Shown here: positions 4,332-20,643 of the stretch, in pieces
Numbering within the stretch: the stretch's first letter is position 1
How the letters are laid out: every line of letters begins with the position of its first letter
From: an uncultured Verrucomicrobiales bacterium
Lineage (GTDB): Bacteria; Verrucomicrobiota; Verrucomicrobiia; Verrucomicrobiales; Akkermansiaceae
Length of the DNA stretch: 64,000 nt
Assembly: GCA_937928545.1 (NCBI GenBank)
Contig: CALGJQ010000036.1
Span: 1-64,000, forward strand
Reading direction: 5' to 3'
Notes under the pieces: generated by a model
Databases searched by the model: none
What the model was told of the DNA's origin: nothing
What the model saw: only the letters and a program-made list of their open reading frames with translations
Program-made: the position numbers and the translations under genes

Positions 4332-7300
4332 TTAGAGGGCGCGGGCGGTGCGGAGCTGGACGGAGGTGATGGTGGTTCCGGCTTCGGAGGTGATTTTGAT
4401 CTGGTTGTTCTCGCGGAGAAGCTCGACGGGCACTTGAGTTTCGAGAGGGGCGAAGAATTCGCTGAACTCGTGGGCGTCGCCGAGGTTGATGGGGATGGTT
4501 GTGCCATTGACGGAAACAATGAGAGCTTCGGAGAGGCCGCCGCGGCGGTGAGCGCCGATGATGAGGCGGGCTTTCTTGGCGGTTTTTGCTTGGTCAACTT
4601 TGACGTCAAAGGTCTGTGGTTTTCCGGCGGTGGCGACGGCGGTTTGGTGGGCGAACCAGCGGTCGAGGGTGAGGGTGCCAGCGGGCTGGAGTGGAGCGCT
4701 GGCGGTGAGGTGGATCACGGTGGTTTCGTTGACATCGATGGGGATTGCGGAGGCCGAGACATCGTGGCGGGCTTGGAAGATGACTTCGCCTTTGTGGTAG
4801 TTCAGTCGGGTTTGCTGGGCGGTCTTTGCGCCGATTGTTTGAGCGAGCTTAGAGAGGTCGAGCGAGAGTTGGCGTCCGCCCATGTTAGTGACGGCGAGGG
4901 AGATGGTGTTGTCTTTGTGGACGGCGACGACGTCGAGGTAGTCGCGCTCGAAGTAGACGGGGAGACGTTTGCCCTCGAAGTCCCGCCAGAGTTCGAAGAA
5001 GTGGGCGATGGGGGTGGGTTCAAAGTCGTCGATGGTCCACGGTTTTTTGATGTCGGTTTTTGGAGTGAAGGCGGCGTCGCCACTGAGGGGATTCCACGAC
5101 ATGTGGAGGAAGACGAAGGGGACGAAGAGGTCGATTTGGTCGGGCCGTTGCATCGACTTGGTGAGGTAGGCGTTCCAGGCGTGGAGGCGGAGCCAGTTGT
5201 CGGATGGCTCGCGGCCATTTTGGAGGGAGCCGCACTCGGTGATGAGGATGGGGAGGACGTTATCGACCTTGTGCATGTGGGCGCGGAGCATGTCGAGGGT
5301 GGCCTCGTAGCGGCCGAGGAGGTAGTTTGAGTAGCCGAGGCCACGACGTTCGTGGGCGCCGAGGGTGAGGGCGTTTTCGTAGAAATGGTGGGAGAAGAAA
5401 TCGAGGTGGCCTTTGGTCTCGGTGATGAAGCGGGCTTGGTCGCGGAAGAGTTTGAAGTCGCCGACATGGACCTGCATGTAGGCGGAGGAAGGGCCGCCGA
5501 CTTTGGTGTTGGGTGATTTTTGGTGAATGGCATCGGCGACCTTATTGTGGAAGTCGGCGAGGAGTCCCCAGCCATCGATGCCTTGTTTTTCTTTCCAGTG
5601 GTGGGCCCACTCGGATTGGACGCTACTTTCGTTTTTGACCTCCCACCAGGTGGCGGTGAAGCCGGCGTCTTTGACTTGGTCGGCGACGAAGGCGGCGGCG
5701 AGTTCGGCGGCTTGATCAAAGTGATCGATGAGCGGGGTGCCGCGGCCGGTGAGGGGGACGGACATGAAATCGGGCCAGTCGTTGAAGCAGGAAGTGAAGG
5801 GGATGGCTTGGTATTCGGGGATCGCTTGGCGGAGGGCGGAGCCAGCGTTGTAGCGTTCGAAGAAGGAGAGGTCGGCGGAGCCGGGTTTGTCGGCGCGTTC
5901 TTTGAGTTGGGGTGGGTTTTTGCCGTATCCTCGGGTCAGAGCGGGGTTGAATTTCATGAAGCCTCGGGCGGGGTGGAAGCCGCGTGCGAGGGCCCATTTC
6001 TCGAAGGACTGATGGGTCGCGCCGGGGGTGGTGTGAGTGCGGAACCAGCGGTCGCGTTTTAGCTCTGAGCTGCCGCCGATGGAGAGCTCATGGGTGGTGT
6101 CGACGAGGACCTCGACGCGTTCGCGTGGATGCTCGGAGCCGAGGTCGCGATAGGGGATGTCGTCGAAGGCGGGGGGGATTTGTTTTTGGGCGATGAAGAC
6201 GAGGTCGTCGATGCGGCAGGTGTCGCTTTCCTTTTTCATGAGGACGCGAATTTTCATGGGCTCGTAGGGTTTGTCGGTGACGGGGAGGGAGGGCATTTGG
6301 ACGCGGTAGAAGTCTTTGGTCTGCTTGCTGCGGGGTGGAGCTGAGTTGGGGGAGAAGGGGAAGACGTGGACTTCCTTGATGAGGTCGAGATTGGCTCCGT
6401 GGAAGGCGAAGTGACGGAAGAGGCCGGCGATTTTTTCGGCGCCTGGTGGGAGGGCGAGTTCATCGCCGTGGCGAATTTCGCGGGCTTCTTTGAGGATGGT
6501 GAGTTCTTTGAGGCCCTTGTCTCGACCTTCACCGCGGTAGCTTGTTTTACGGTCTTTGGCGAAGGTTTGGAAGAGGTAGTCGTGGGTGGCTTTTTTGCGT
6601 TGGCCTTCGGGGCTGAGGGTTTGTTCCTTTTTGAGAACGGGTATGATGTCGGAGGGGATATCGAGTTTTCCATCGTGGGCTCCGGCGGCGAAGGTGCTGA
6701 GGTGGTAGGTGTCCTTTTTTGACCAGTCGGCTTCGAGGCGCTGGTCTCCGAGGATGATGCGGCCGAGTTTTTGGCGGAACCATTCGGCAAGTTTTTGGTA
6801 GTCGGAATGGGCGGCGATGTTGTTGGTTTCGCCGGGGTCAGAGCGGAGGTCGAAGAGGGCGAGTTCGACCTTGGCGGTGTCGGTGGTGAGGGCCCATTTG
6901 ATGTTTTCACCGGGAGGGTGTCCCCATTTTTCGCCAGGCTTGCCGTCCTTTTCACGGTAGCGCATGGAGAAGGCGAAGTGATCGGAACGGAGGTAGGCGC
7001 GGGGTCCGATAACGTGGCACATTTCGCCGATGACATAGTCGCGCTTTTTCTTTTGGGTGAGGATGTCGTCGAGGGGGAAGCCGTCGAGATGTTGGTATTT
7101 TTCTTCGCTGAGTTTAGCTCCGGCGGTGCGGAGAATGGTGGGGGCGAAGTCGACGAACTCGACCCAGTTGTGAGAGATTTTTCCGGCGGGGAATTTCTTT
7201 TTATCAGAGGAGACGGCGATGACGGCGCAGTGGTTCGAGGTGTCGTAGGGAGCGAACTTTGCCTCGCCGCCTTGTTCGCCGAGGTGCCAACCGTGGTCGC

Positions 7301-14601: not shown

Positions 14602-16185
14602 TCAGTCCTCCGTTGGACTGGACAACGAAGGACCACATTCAGTTGGTGAAATTTTAATCCTAGGAACTACTTTATCTTTGGTAAGAAAGTCAGAGACGAT
14701 AACCTTCGGATGATATTGTTCAATGGCTCTCCCGAAATATAAGCAGGCTGCGTTAGAGGCACATGGTAGAAGGTGAATTGTAGAAACTTTATAGTCAGTA
14801 GAAATTTTATGGAGAAGAATATTCATGAGGTGCTGGAATTCCAGCCCATCAGCTGGGTGGCCGATGCAATTACCTGACTGCTCTTTAACTGTGACAATGA
14901 TTTCACTCGAATTTTCCTGACTTAGGATCTCTTCTGATCTTTTCGATAAAGAGTTCGGGCTTGCGGTCAACTCGAGTCGGATAACAACAGAGTCCAAATT
15001 CTGAGGGATTATTGGAGGCTCAACGATCAGTATCTTAGCTCCAACGGGTTCTTGAAGCGGCCAACACCACTGTCCCAATTCTCTGGTTCGTAACGCAGCC
15101 ATAACGTTGTTCTTGTTCCCGATTAGAGCCCCTAATGACACGAGAAGGGGCATAGGGCCACTTGCAAAAATCCCATAAGATTGGCCACTAGACTGGGCTG
15201 TCTGTTCTAAGTGGGCATGAGACGCTCTTAACATGTGAGGAGCAAACTTCCAAAAATCATCGGACTTGTCGTCTTTGGATCCAGAAATGTTTGAATCATC
15301 AATGATTTGAAGTTCTCCACTGGATCTCAGAAACGAAGTAGCCAAGCAGTTGCTCACTTCTCGGGGTGTTGGAGGAGAAACGGGCTGGCCGTTTATTGGC
15401 CAACAAAAACTATAGGTTTTGACTGGGTGAAACTTAAGAAGGTCAAGAAGAGCATTCTTGTCGGTGATGAATCTCGTCCTCATCGCTTCAAGCCTATCTC
15501 TAGGGAAATCTGCGCAAGCAACTCTGTCGATCAAGCGGTGGCACTTGTCGCAGAGTAGCATCACATTGGAAGGAACATCGGATAGCAGCGCAGATTCTCC
15601 GACTTCTCCTCGTGGTCCTTCTTCAGAGGATGCGACGATATGGGCAAGGTAGCCAAAATAAGAATCATCCCCGGAAAGCTCGTTTTGGTTGAGTTTCTCG
15701 GCGCAACCTTCGAACATGCATCTCATCGAAGCGTCGTCGAACACTTTCCGCCCTGTATCTGTACTGAATTTCTCTCCTCGGCCTTTCCCATGTTTGACGC
15801 CTTTTTTGGGTTCTTCGAAAACCTGTTTAAGATGTTTTTGAATCAATCCATCTCTTGAGCAATGGGCTAGAAAAACAGAGACTTTCTCAAGAGATAAAAT
15901 GTCTTCTTTCTGAATGCTTGATTTCGATGTGAACAGAAATCGCGACTGTCTTTTAGGGGCAAATAGGTTTGTGACTTTCCATGCGTCTTTCTCACAAATA
16001 TTGGCACGGAATGCTGCTATAACCACTTCGTTTTCAAGAAGGACAAAAATCGAGTTGTGATGATTCTCGTCGGTTAGCAGTCCAAATTCAGACCACAAAG
16101 TGTTCTCGTTTTCTAGGGTTTCGAAGTAGTTCGAGACATCTAGGTAGCTGGAGAATGGAGGGCTTTCAGTCTGCATTTTTTTCAT
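14602..16185 (-). CDS. cap5: CBASS effector Cap5: HNH nuclease with SAVED sensor, extra N-terminal domain
   Basis: Effector nuclease of a CBASS anti-phage system: a cyclic nucleotide bound by the SAVED domain switches on DNA cutting by the HNH domain. HNH lies at about residues 143-240, with zinc pair C156-x4-C161, catalytic His182 in L-A-H-I-V-A, and C212-D-K-C215-H216. SAVED lies at about 255-500: I-F-A-S-G-P-M-P-L near 339 and a closing H-L-L-P-C-A-S-N-A-A-C-L-Y-F-G-R-A near 471-486. Typical Cap5 proteins are roughly 400 residues and begin close to the HNH domain. This one has 527, with about 140 additional N-terminal residues of mixed alpha/beta character and no recognised motif. The ATG overlaps the cap3 TGA (ATGA). 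The cyclic nucleotide it recognises cannot be deduced from sequence alone. Confidence 0.9.
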   Translation of the reverse strand: MKKMQTESPPFSSYLDVSNYFETLENENTLWSEFGLLTDENHHNSIFVLLENEVVIAAFRANICEKDAWKVTNLFAPKRQSRFLFTSKSSIQKEDILSLEKVSVFLAHCSRDGLIQKHLKQVFEEPKKGVKHGKGRGEKFSTDTGRKVFDDASMRCMFEGCAEKLNQNELSGDDSYFGYLAHIVASSEEGPRGEVGESALLSDVPSNVMLLCDKCHRLIDRVACADFPRDRLEAMRTRFITDKNALLDLLKFHPVKTYSFCWPINGQPVSPPTPREVSNCLATSFLRSSGELQIIDDSNISGSKDDKSDDFWKFAPHMLRASHAHLEQTAQSSGQSYGIFASGPMPLLVSLGALIGNKNNVMAALRTRELGQWCWPLQEPVGAKILIVEPPIIPQNLDSVVIRLELTASPNSLSKRSEEILSQENSSEIIVTVKEQSGNCIGHPADGLEFQHLMNILLHKISTDYKVSTIHLLPCASNAACLYFGRAIEQYHPKVIVSDFLTKDKVVPRIKISPTECGPSLSSPTED

Positions 16186-16679
16186 TTCTCTGTGGGTGTA
16201 TTTAGGCTGATGAACTTCATTTTGGTGATCCTATTATTCACCGAAAGATACGCTGATGTGCTTTTGAGCCCTACAATAACGAAACAGAATTCTCGGAATT
16301 GAGGGTTGGCTTCTTGCTGCCTCTCCCATCCCCGGAAATCAGCTTGAGATGGAGACGGGTCATCTTCGGGATGGGTGTGCCATGTTCCAAGTAATCGGAT
16401 TTTCCCTCCGGAATTTTTAGCTTCTAGATCAAGTTCTTTCTGATGATTTTTTCCTGAAATTTTGAAAGTGAACCGTGTTCGGTTGTCCGATTTTTTTGGC
16501 ACAGTGGCTTTTTCTAACCAAATGCGACTTGTATCAGAGTCAATCGAAGCCATCAAAATTCCACATGCTTCAGGAGTATCCGAATATTTTTGTCGGTGCT
16601 CGTCCCATTTTTTTTGGACAGAATCCTCGACAAGAAGGAGGACTCCTTTGTCTACGAAGCCAATTTTATAGCTCTTCAT
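16182..16679 (-). CDS. cap3: CBASS Cap3: JAMM-family deconjugating protease
   Basis: A 165-residue JAB/MPN metalloprotease. In type II CBASS, Cap3 cuts the isopeptide bond that Cap2 makes between the CD-NTase C-terminus and a target, reversing priming. The JAMM zinc motif is complete: Glu37 in P-E-A-C-G-I-L-M, then H101-T-H103-P, and after seven residues S111-Q-A-D114. An ATG at 16697 would give six more residues, but the ATG at 16679 is preferred because it makes the same 4-base ATGA overlap with the upstream stop that every other junction in the operon shows. Confidence 0.92.
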   Translation of the reverse strand: MKSYKIGFVDKGVLLLVEDSVQKKWDEHRQKYSDTPEACGILMASIDSDTSRIWLEKATVPKKSDNRTRFTFKISGKNHQKELDLEAKNSGGKIRLLGTWHTHPEDDPSPSQADFRGWERQQEANPQFREFCFVIVGLKSTSAYLSVNNRITKMKFISLNTPTEK

Positions 16680-18418
16680 TTTGAGCAGAGCGCGCATAGT
16701 TGATTTTTGGTTGGGATTTCTTTAAGCTGGCTTTCAAATTGGAAATATCGGTCGGTAAATTTTAGGTTAGGTAGTTCTTCGTGAACGAGATTGCCGCGCC
16801 AGGAGACTTTTTTTCCTAGTTTAGTTTTTTCTAGGAGTGCTCTGATGGCTAATTTTGTTGCCATATTGGCAGTTTGCGAAGCGTCGAGTATTGAGTAGGG
16901 AAGAAATAGCGAACCGCAACTCCCCACGTGTTCTGTTACATTTTGATTTGGTTTTAGGAAATTTAGATTGGGTGTTAGAGATCGCTCACCTTCACCCCCA
17001 GGAATCAAGAAATTGCATTGGTGGCATCCGTTTTCATAATTTCCACCAACTAGAACAGCATGACCACCGATACCATTTGGTTCGAGCCACGTGTAGACTA
17101 CAGGAGTCTTAATCCCTCGAAGAATCAGCTTTTCATTGAATGCGAATTCATGGGTGGAATTTCCAATTGCGACAATTATGAGGTCAAAGCTTTTCAATTG
17201 AGAATCGGTGAGGCCAAGTAACTTAGATTTTGAATGTTCGAGCCTAGTAAAAGGAAATTTTTGACCAAGTTCAGTGGTAATTGCAGGTGCTTTGAGGATG
17301 CCATCCCACCTCATACTTAATAATGAGTGCCGATAAAGATTGTCTAGGCTGAATACGTCATGATCGGCTAGTGCTAGTTTACCGATTCCAGAGCTTGCTA
17401 AGGAACTTGCTATTACTGACCCGACCGATCCGCACCCAACTACTAAAGCTGATTTCTCTTGTAGTTGAGCAGTGCCACCACCACGGGGGATAAGATAATC
17501 TCTGGTATGAGGGTCTACAGTTCTGGCGGAAAAACTCCAATTATCCAGAAAGTCTAAGGCGATAGGAGCCTTCTCTTTATTGATCGAATTGGCAATTAGA
17601 GCAAACCAGATGTCTTGGTCCTCATAGCGAGTGCGGCAGACTATCCAGAATTCGGTTGATCGGGTGTGGCGGGCTTTATTTCGAAGTTCCTTTTTTTCTT
17701 CGTGCGTTTGGACCTGAAGAAAATGTCTCCACCACTGCTTCAGGTCATCGGTATGTGAGGGAGGGGCTATGAGCCCATTAAGATTTATTAGTAACCCTTT
17801 TCCTGAAGTGCGTCTGTCTTTTGATTCAGCTTCGATTCTAGGTAGGTAATTTTGAGATTGGCTGTCAAGTTCTTCTAGAAGAGCAATCGGTTTTGAGAGC
17901 AAGTTCTGAGACTTTGATTTGGGGCGAGTACAATGGAGATCAGTGATCGTTTTGGAGGATTCTCCGACCAGCAGTATGGGTTGGTCGGTTACTGCAAATT
18001 GCCAATGTCCCACAAATTCACGCAGGCATTCTTTCTCGTTTAAGTCGGGATCAAGAAATGCTGGTTTGAATGTCGCTATGGCCTTGTTTAATCCCGCCAA
18101 ATAAACTTTCTCAGGAGAATGAGAATCAAGTGCCAAGGCATCTGAACTTCCACCGCAAATAAGGCCAAGATCACTGAATTTCTCTTCGTTTTTTTGAACT
18201 AGGGTCCTTGGCCATCCCACGTGAGCTAGTCTGCCGTAAGAGCTTCGTTCACAGAGAAAATACTCTGGAAGCGAATGAGGAAAGGCTCCCTCCAAATTGC
18301 CAAGGATTTCAAGCGAGGAATCCCCAATTTGGTGTCGAGTCCGTATGTATCCCTCGGATGAATCGACAACCTGATTCCTCTCACTTTCTAAGTATGAAAT
18401 AACTCCAGCTACACTCAT
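16676..18418 (-). CDS. cap2: CBASS Cap2: E2-E1 fused ubiquitin-like ligase
   Basis: A 580-residue Cap2 protein that primes the CD-NTase by attaching its C-terminus to cellular targets. Residues 1-140 are the E2-like part, with H66-V-G-W and the likely active Cys88 in L-G-L-I-C-G-G. A linker region (about 150-310) leads to the E1 adenylation domain, which opens with the nucleotide loop V-V-G-C-G-S-V-G-S at about 326-334 and A-D-H-D-V-F-S-L-D-N, the ThiF/MoeB signature. V-G-S-C-G-S-L-F-L-P-Y-S near the end probably holds the E1 catalytic Cys. C-H-Q-C and the C-terminal C-A-L-C could share a zinc ion. The gene overlaps both neighbours by 4 bases. Confidence 0.93.
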   Translation of the reverse strand: MSVAGVISYLESERNQVVDSSEGYIRTRHQIGDSSLEILGNLEGAFPHSLPEYFLCERSSYGRLAHVGWPRTLVQKNEEKFSDLGLICGGSSDALALDSHSPEKVYLAGLNKAIATFKPAFLDPDLNEKECLREFVGHWQFAVTDQPILLVGESSKTITDLHCTRPKSKSQNLLSKPIALLEELDSQSQNYLPRIEAESKDRRTSGKGLLINLNGLIAPPSHTDDLKQWWRHFLQVQTHEEKKELRNKARHTRSTEFWIVCRTRYEDQDIWFALIANSINKEKAPIALDFLDNWSFSARTVDPHTRDYLIPRGGGTAQLQEKSALVVGCGSVGSVIASSLASSGIGKLALADHDVFSLDNLYRHSLLSMRWDGILKAPAITTELGQKFPFTRLEHSKSKLLGLTDSQLKSFDLIIVAIGNSTHEFAFNEKLILRGIKTPVVYTWLEPNGIGGHAVLVGGNYENGCHQCNFLIPGGEGERSLTPNLNFLKPNQNVTEHVGSCGSLFLPYSILDASQTANMATKLAIRALLEKTKLGKKVSWRGNLVHEELPNLKFTDRYFQFESQLKEIPTKNQLCALCSK

Positions 18419-19455
18419 GCTCCCGAAGGGTCACCAACAAGTCCGCTGCCAACGTAAATATTTTTCTTAACTGACTCCTTTTTCTCTGCGAGTGGAAAGT
18501 CGTCTCCGAACTGTTGACGTAGAATTTTGGACTGCTCGACCACGTCTTCCTCAATTATAGCCAAATCACATTTCTCAAGAAGCTTAACTAGTTTAGTGCG
18601 AAGAGGGGTTCCGACCGGAGAGCCATGGTTTTCGAAAATATCTCTCCACGGCCTAACTGGAAGGGGGACTCTAATTTTGTATTTAGTATTTTCAAAATCG
18701 ATTGGAGAAAAATAGGAACTTAGATAGAGAATGTTGTGAATTGTCTCTCTTAGCGCTAAGAGGTCATTGGCCACTCCATCTTCATTGACTTGTTTCGAGA
18801 AAGAGTCCTTGGCCATCAATGTGAGCCCGATGGAGTAGACTTTTTTCCTCGCTGTTTCGCTTTTGTATCTAACGTCCCTCCAGCGCTTGAGATATCGGGC
18901 GATTCGGCGATACTGGCTCTTTTCGAGAGAAGTTAAATATCCGTTTTTGTCTTTAAGGTGGTCAATTAGGCCCTTCGGATCGTTCCCATCCCAGATTCGA
19001 GTGGCGTCATTTGAAAATTCTTTTCCTACTGCGAGTTCAAGGTTTCCTAGTGAATCTTTACGGTAGATGGGGTAGTCAAAATGAAGATCATTGCCTACAT
19101 AATCGGCTGTAACACAGGGTTTTTTAATCGCGGGATTTGAGAATCTGCGATTCTTAAGTGTGTCGCGCAGAACTTTCTTTGGAGCGATTGGATCGTCTGG
19201 TGAATCTTCCGAATTAATGACAAGCGCCCGATCAATGTCTCTGTCGCCATATAGCGACACGATCCCTGTGTTCACTCCATCAGCCATCGAACCCTGAATG
19301 AAGTCTTCAACTATTGGGTATCCTGCCTTTTTAAAGGCGGACTTTATCTCAATTTTGATACTGTCGTCTTTTTGTCGAGCCTCTTTATAACGTTTGTCCT
19401 CGCGGGTTAGTTTGATGGCATTGTGGAATTTGTCGAATTGTGTTTGGATGCTCAT
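18415..19455 (-). CDS. CBASS CD-NTase (cyclic oligonucleotide synthase)
   Basis: A 346-residue cGAS/DncV-like nucleotidyltransferase that makes the cyclic nucleotide alarm when phage is sensed. The opening S-I-Q-T-Q-F-D-K-F-H is typical of the family. The active site is intact: G55-S56 in the G-S helix, the metal pair D73-x-D75 in D-R-D-I-D-R, and a third Asp (about 127) in H-F-D-Y-P-I-Y. The chain ends in a flexible D-P-S-G-A, which suits use of the C-terminus as the Cap2 conjugation point. ATG 19455 is preferred to ATG 19485: it fits the family start, and a TATAGT -10 element lies between the two. The product (cyclic di- or trinucleotide) cannot be read from sequence alone. Confidence 0.92.
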   Translation of the reverse strand: MSIQTQFDKFHNAIKLTREDKRYKEARQKDDSIKIEIKSAFKKAGYPIVEDFIQGSMADGVNTGIVSLYGDRDIDRALVINSEDSPDDPIAPKKVLRDTLKNRRFSNPAIKKPCVTADYVGNDLHFDYPIYRKDSLGNLELAVGKEFSNDATRIWDGNDPKGLIDHLKDKNGYLTSLEKSQYRRIARYLKRWRDVRYKSETARKKVYSIGLTLMAKDSFSKQVNEDGVANDLLALRETIHNILYLSSYFSPIDFENTKYKIRVPLPVRPWRDIFENHGSPVGTPLRTKLVKLLEKCDLAIIEEDVVEQSKILRQQFGDDFPLAEKKESVKKNIYVGSGLVGDPSGA

Positions 19456-19468
19456 TTTTCTGAATTGA

Positions 19469-19474
19469 ACTATA
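19469..19474 (-). promoter_or_regulatory. Candidate -10 element of the CBASS operon
   Basis: TATAGT on the minus strand, 13 bases before the CD-NTase ATG. It would start transcription near 19462 and leave a very short leader. No good -35 stands at the ideal spacing; the dyad at 19497-19514 lies where the -35 region would be. Confidence 0.35.
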
Positions 19475-19496
19475 CCTCTTTGCACCTTTCATGCCA

Positions 19497-19514
19497 TTTG
19501 TTCGGCTGAACAAA
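19497..19514. promoter_or_regulatory. LexA-like operator in front of the CBASS operon
   Basis: A perfect dyad, TTTGTTC-GGCT-GAACAAA, 41 bases upstream of the CD-NTase start. Its core TGTTC-N4-GAACA is the LexA binding motif reported for Verrucomicrobiota. It overlaps the expected -35 region, a natural place for a repressor. The match and position are seen directly; control by LexA is inferred. Confidence 0.6.
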
Positions 19515-20643
19515 CTCAGCCCAGCTCGCGATCTTATATTTTTAGTTGTTTTATCGCGATCGGACGCGATTACGTAAAAAGTGAGTCTCGCCGTTCGGGT
19601 AAGCACGGTGAATTTTTAAAAATAGCAATTTTGCGAGGATTTTGACGGTGGTGTATTTTTCATTGTCAACAAATCTTGATATGAATATATCTATTAAAAT
19701 TTTCGAGTTGGCTGTATCGAAGTGTCGCGATGTGTGACAAAATGCCCCATCTGTTTGCATTTGCGAAGTCAAAGGAAACTGTATCTTTCAAAGATATTAA
19801 AGGCCGGCTGCGTAAAGAAGGCAAAAGCCACTCCTGTCACAAAACTATGCCAGCCATATTTTGAAAGAAATTATGCTAAACCACTTGTCCATAAAGTCAT
19901 GCGGAGATTTTCAATGTTCAAAGTTGCCGCAGATTTGAGAAGGATTTCCGCAGATTAACGCAGATTTTTCTCGGAGGGTTCTCCGGCCTCTTAGAGCATC
20001 GGCGATGCTTAGCTCCCAGTTCCCCCAACCCCCAGAGTGCCCTTGGGTAAAAGGGGTGAACCAACGAAGCCCAGTGGCAGATCCCGCGCATGCGGGGGCC
20101 GCCCTGGGTCTTTGAGGCGGGATAAGGATGCGCGAGCCTTTGGATGCTGAATCGGATATGAGATGCCCGAAGCGCGCCGTTTCGGCATTGGAGCTGGCGG
20201 CGGGGGCATCGGGTGAGTGCTGTGAGATTCGACACGTTTTGCTCGCTCGGTTCTGGTCTATGCGCAGACCTAGGGCGGCGGTCGTCCTTCCTCTGCCCGT
20301 GGGCTACGATAGATCGCTCCGGTTGGGGCTGGAGGGCGAAGAAAGATCCTTGCGCTCACGCTTGATTGTTTGGCCTCTTGGCAGGGAGTTTTTAACACCG
20401 ATTTTAACACCGATTTATGAGGATGATTTTGGATTCTTGAAGATTGGGAGAGGGGCTTGAATTGAGGGAGGAGTGAGATTTGGTTTCTCGTCGTTTTGGG
20501 TTTCGACCTTCTGATTTTTGAAATTAGGATTTTCGTCTGCACATATCGTGAGTGAGCAGAGTTATTTCCTTAGCATGATTGCTTTGGACTCATCAGGGCT
20601 GTTTCAGCTTGCTGCGTGGGCAGATCTCCCTAAAGTTTTCTGT
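19515..20643. other. Gene-free stretch with repeat-like DNA
   Basis: About 1.1 kb between the divergent CBASS and metalloprotease genes. No frame reads as a protein. The first 400 bases are AT-rich. CGCAGATT occurs three times at 19928-19966. A GC-rich block of about 420 bases (19970-20390) follows, with the look of dispersed intergenic repeat DNA. A 12-base unit TTAACACCGATT is repeated twice in tandem at 20392-20415. The boundary of the transition from AT-rich to GC-rich is sharp, near 19970. Confidence 0.5.

Follow-up and report, generated by a model that had tools for sequence, protein, structure and literature searches.

A LexA-type box in front of a type II CBASS operon in an Akkermansiaceae genome

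How a self-killing defence stays quiet, and when it is released, is an open question, and CapH/CapP already ties some CBASS operons to DNA damage. The operon studied here lies in a 64,000-nucleotide window (the whole stretch of DNA analyzed) and comprises four genes on the minus strand. The CBASS assignment made in the first-pass annotation was confirmed by PADLOC matches to all four: the CD-NTase or CBASS oligonucleotide cyclase (346 aa, 18415..19455; Cyclase PDLC00795, 1.8e-101), in which the GS...DID motif is present; Cap2, an E1-E2 fusion with a ThiF domain (16676..18418; PDLC00843, 3.2e-146); Cap3, a JAB-type peptidase (16182..16697; PDLC00894, 5.6e-42); and a Cap5-like effector, in which an HNH nuclease is fused to a SAVED sensor (14602..16185; PDLC00738, 5.3e-143; SAVED, 3.6e-25). 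The operon is intact, and the type II set of CD-NTase, Cap2, Cap3, and effector is thus complete in one operon. The ATG of the CD-NTase at 19455 is supported by an annotated homologue on a V. mediterranei plasmid, whose own first residue aligns to residue 1 of the CD-NTase. Among the open reading frames of the window, no regulator gene adjoins the operon, so that it has neither a CapH/CapP nor a WYL (CapW) neighbor, and CapP found no match in the genome, in agreement with the earlier statement that none of the regulators proper to CBASS is present. The Cap2 subfamily occurs in 0 of 259 other genomes of the family, and the GC content of the operon is 44% against 53% for the window, from which we argue that the operon was acquired. 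An empty insertion site was sought, but the nearest genome with a neighboring gene has only that gene in common, and no relative of the operon was found in phage records.

What might regulate such an operon is suggested by the region in front of it. The perfect dyad TTTGTTCGGCTGAACAAA (TTTGTTC-GGCT-GAACAAA) was read directly from the sequence at 19497-19514, with its core TGTTC-N4-GAACA at 19499-19512, and 41 bases (19456-19496) separate it from the minus-strand CD-NTase ATG, exactly as first described. We call it a LexA-type box, without assigning it a strand, on the basis of the lineage motif and the matrix score given below. Its arms form 7 perfect base pairs, and ten core positions match the half-sites and spacing of the lineage LexA box. 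The exact core is present as a single copy in the window, where shuffled sequences lead one to expect 0.05 copies (5 of 100 shuffles had at least one). The low-GC stretch takes in the box. The annotation had further placed it on top of the -35 region, and this part stood only in a weaker form. On the minus strand, the sequence most like a promoter, ATGGCA-N17-TATAGT (19469..19497), has a putative -35 element beginning at 19497, which shares one base with the dyad and otherwise abuts it; this match has 9 of 12 consensus bases and does not exceed chance, as shuffles give 1.7 for the 1 seen. On the other flank of the box, about 1 kb holds no convincing gene, leaving no other obvious gene for the box to serve. 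A second inverted repeat, GGCTGA-N6-TCAGCC (19504-19521), overlaps the box.

An SOS regulon with the box TGTTC-N4-GAACA has reportedly been described for Verrucomicrobia. The first-pass annotation, which relied on this motif, would have been refuted by the absence of LexA from the genome or by a different motif upstream of its lexA and recA, and neither result was obtained. LexA is encoded in the organism's own assembly (3.98 Mb in 75 contigs, about 92% complete) at contig C31:979-1578 (E = 2.7e-47), where it keeps the AAG cleavage site and the Ser/Lys catalytic motifs, and RecA is encoded as well. Its recognition helix, ASQTAAMSHLRALERKG, is identical in relatives that carry exact boxes. LexA is present in 49 of 60 family genomes examined, and the regions upstream of lexA in about 50 family genomes contain the exact motif in roughly half of the cases, typically some 20 nt upstream of the gene, while most of the remainder have one or two mismatches to it. 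Within the genus, an exact box stands a few nucleotides before imuA in nine genomes, including the one studied here, and two genomes have one 24 nt upstream of dnaE2; exact sites across 27 genus genomes number 94 against 23 for a reversed control. Occurrence before lexA of relatives, imuA, dnaE2, and dinB thus identifies TGTTC-N4-GAACA, from sequence comparison, as the LexA box of the lineage. The proposed scan upstream of lexA, recA, and other SOS genes gave a divided answer in the genome itself: imuA, dinB, and an integron-type integrase gene have exact boxes, and lexA and recA have degenerate ones. The box before lexA, TGTTCATGAAACCA, has 2 mismatches and is conserved in the genus, where a one- or two-mismatch box TGTTCATSRAAMCA precedes lexA. 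Rather than one exact box, lexA and recA each have several degenerate ones, at intervals of about 15 nt. Elsewhere in the family, all five sampled genomes of genus g2 (G005, G021, G024, G027, and G030) gave no LexA match.

The genome has 7 exact sites, against 2 for the reversed control, and six of them stand 2-43 nt before intact genes. The genes behind these six sites are dinB, imuA (followed by imuB and dnaE2), the integron-type integrase gene, an HD hydrolase gene, a C5 methyltransferase/HNH pair, and the CBASS operon; the seventh site lies between convergent genes. One-mismatch sites were left out of this candidate regulon because they are hardly more frequent than in the control (63 versus 54). 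Its position groups the CBASS site with the real boxes.

Sequence beyond the core is less favorable to it. Scored with a matrix derived from 37 trusted boxes (those of lexA of relatives, imuA, dnaE2, dinB, and intI), the CBASS site reached 16.8 bits, below all trusted sites (19.1-26.5) and lowest among the seven exact sites of the genome; even the seventh site, which is not in a promoter and is probably a chance site, scored 18.7 bits. The low score is due to the GC-rich spacer GGCT and the flanks, as trusted boxes prefer T/T/A/A in the spacer; some of the trusted boxes also have a GC-rich spacer (e.g., CACC before lexA of genome G244). The site could accordingly be read as a chance palindrome with an exact core that LexA does not use, CBASS being constitutively low or otherwise controlled. 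To judge from the reversed controls, chance alone would place a few exact sites in each genome, and the box is not conserved at other CBASS loci of the phylum. Chance sites should rarely precede genes, yet six of seven do; by chance, about 0.15 exact sites would be expected this close upstream of genes, so that position favors a real box by a factor of about 40, with spacer and flanks weighing against it by a factor of about 10. Furthermore, an exact site within 100 nt before the operon is expected at about 8e-5 (calculated from some 3 per genome, the shuffle rate), and chance does not readily account for arms that run to 7 perfect base pairs. We therefore consider a chance palindrome improbable. 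This rough weighing, an estimate and not a computed probability, leaves LexA control of the CBASS site likely.

Related operons, whose upstream regions the first-pass annotation had suggested comparing, lent the box no support within the phylum, where no box was found at the other CD-NTase loci in 388 genomes. The family offers no close orthologue, as the Cap2 subfamily is in none of its other genomes. The nearest operons are carried by plasmids of gammaproteobacteria; they share the gene order, and their CD-NTases are 46-49% identical. In Shewanella ANA-3 and Enterobacter hormaechei, genes for a helix-turn-helix protein and an ImmA/IrrE peptidase lie divergent to these operons, and the Shewanella pair matches CapH (4.6e-16) and CapP (1.2e-43) in PADLOC. 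CapH and CapP are known DNA-damage-sensing regulators of CBASS (Lau et al. 2022, EMBO J, as described in PMC10693628). The genome collection scanned with the CD-NTase yielded one distant relative, in Parabeggiatoa, upstream of which neither an exact LexA box nor one with a single mismatch was present. At the thresholds used, a LexA box was likewise not found before the CBASS operons of enterobacterial, Vibrio, Acinetobacter, Deinococcus, Desulfovibrio-group, and Firmicutes plasmids.

In a Klebsiella/Raoultella homologue that lacks CapH/CapP, another perfect dyad, ATTTGTTGT-N7-ACAACAAAT (5965-5989 of the Raoultella plasmid locus, L118), precedes the CD-NTase ATG by 11 nt; it may be an operator or a hairpin. 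Since such dyads are used by many repressors, and a second dyad overlaps the box in our operon, the site could also be the operator of another dimeric regulator, encoded elsewhere for instance, its likeness to a LexA box being coincidental. We regard this as very unlikely given that all ten half-site positions and the spacing fit the lineage box, that no regulator gene adjoins the operon, and that the genome has no CapP match. Finally, binding of LexA upstream of the -35 element without repression, or with modulation only, would fit the one-base overlap with the predicted -35 but seems equally unlikely, as the promoter prediction is weak and the true start may be elsewhere. The imuA, dinB, and lexA boxes are within about 25 nt of their genes and thus closer than the CBASS box, though their promoters are likewise unmapped.

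LexA repression of the CBASS operon, with the dyad as operator for the cell's own LexA, is in our judgment the probable reading. The first-pass annotation had proposed that LexA holds the operon and DNA damage releases it; LexA control is well supported by the sequence evidence, and LexA binding, repression, induction by damage, and feedback are steps that we infer. During normal growth, LexA bound beside the -35 element of the CBASS promoter would keep expression of the four genes low. Damage, stalled replication, phage replication, or prophage induction would generate single-stranded DNA and load RecA, which would promote self-cleavage of LexA and hence stronger expression of CBASS. Expression alone should not kill, since the CD-NTase would still need its trigger, and Cap2, Cap3, and the effector would act as in other type II systems. 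As the effector is predicted to be a DNase, its first cuts could release more CBASS, closing a positive feedback loop through RecA and LexA. In this scheme, LexA would supply the DNA-damage input that CapH/CapP gives in related operons; it is a plausible substitute with the same input because the operon has no CapH/CapP beside it and the genome no CapP, and it may have taken over from that pair.

Cyanobacterial plasmids offer a lead to a second occurrence, which emerged after about 40 promoters had been looked at with several motifs. On the Nostoc plasmid pNPM2, an exact AGTAC-N4-GTACT (AGTACTTTTGTACT) lies 143 nt before the CD-NTase of a CBASS operon and occurs nowhere else in the 167-kb plasmid, and a Calothrix plasmid CBASS, 73% identical to the Nostoc operon, has AGTACTGATGTACG 80 nt before the CD-NTase start. 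Both sites fit the LexA motif of Nostoc PCC 7120, RGTACNNNDGTWCB (PMC3091678). Shuffling of the 9-kb loci leads one to expect 0.05-0.12 matches, and each locus has a single one; the Nostoc palindrome gives a count of 2 because it is read on both strands. A different CBASS operon in Geminocystis showed no cyanobacterial LexA motif. It is conceivable, though we lean slightly against it, that host LexA has gained control, independently in two or more phyla, of CBASS operons devoid of damage-sensing regulators of their own, in each case through boxes of the host's type and with a DNase effector closing the RecA/LexA loop.

LexA regulates integron integrases, and an exact box precedes the integron-type integrase gene of this genome; what such regulation governs is recombination and not defence. 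The Verrucomicrobia SOS regulon has the same half-sites and spacing, and dinB and imuA-imuB-dnaE2 carry the box here, but the additional candidate target is a phage-defence operon, and the literature search turned up no paper naming an operon of this sort, such as CBASS, as a target. Among regulated CBASS systems, those with CapH/CapP, as described in PMC10693628, are likewise type II, with a CD-NTase about 48% identical, the same gene order, and a tie to DNA damage through sensing of single-stranded DNA; in contrast, CapH/CapP is missing here, and the input would pass through host RecA and LexA, with no dedicated pair. CapW-regulated CBASS (PMC9122588) similarly has a repressor at a palindrome in the CBASS promoter, but the gene for CapW, a WYL protein, sits next to the operon that it controls, and none adjoins ours. 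In the titles, abstracts, and text passages covered by a literature search that paired LexA or the SOS response with CBASS, CD-NTases, or defence islands and had few subscription papers within reach, no LexA-controlled CBASS was reported. On present evidence, what is new is probably a regulatory variant, with LexA as the input, of a known system, type II CBASS. If so, one 14-bp site can wire mobile defence operons into the core stress response of the host, and interplay with prophage induction and DNA-damaging antibiotics is predicted; if the same holds elsewhere, DNA damage would be a general license for CBASS and not the quirk of one regulator.

Other exact boxes of the genome and genus have neighbors of interest. 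The integron-type integrase gene (contig C18, 238-1514) has its box 27 nt upstream. On contig C27 (65-1514), an exact box stands just before the HD-domain hydrolase gene, whose product weakly matches dGTPase defence proteins (7e-9). On contig C50 (593-2170), the C5 cytosine methyltransferase gene, which is followed by the HNH nuclease gene, has an exact box whose end is 2 nt upstream of it, and the pair is possibly a second defence locus under LexA. Conservation of this box in a further genome (G597) was considered and rejected, as a different gene occupies that place. In genus relatives (loci L109 and L114, at about 1501), TGTTCTTATGAACA lies six bases before an apparent IS91-type transposase gene, which may be SOS regulated.
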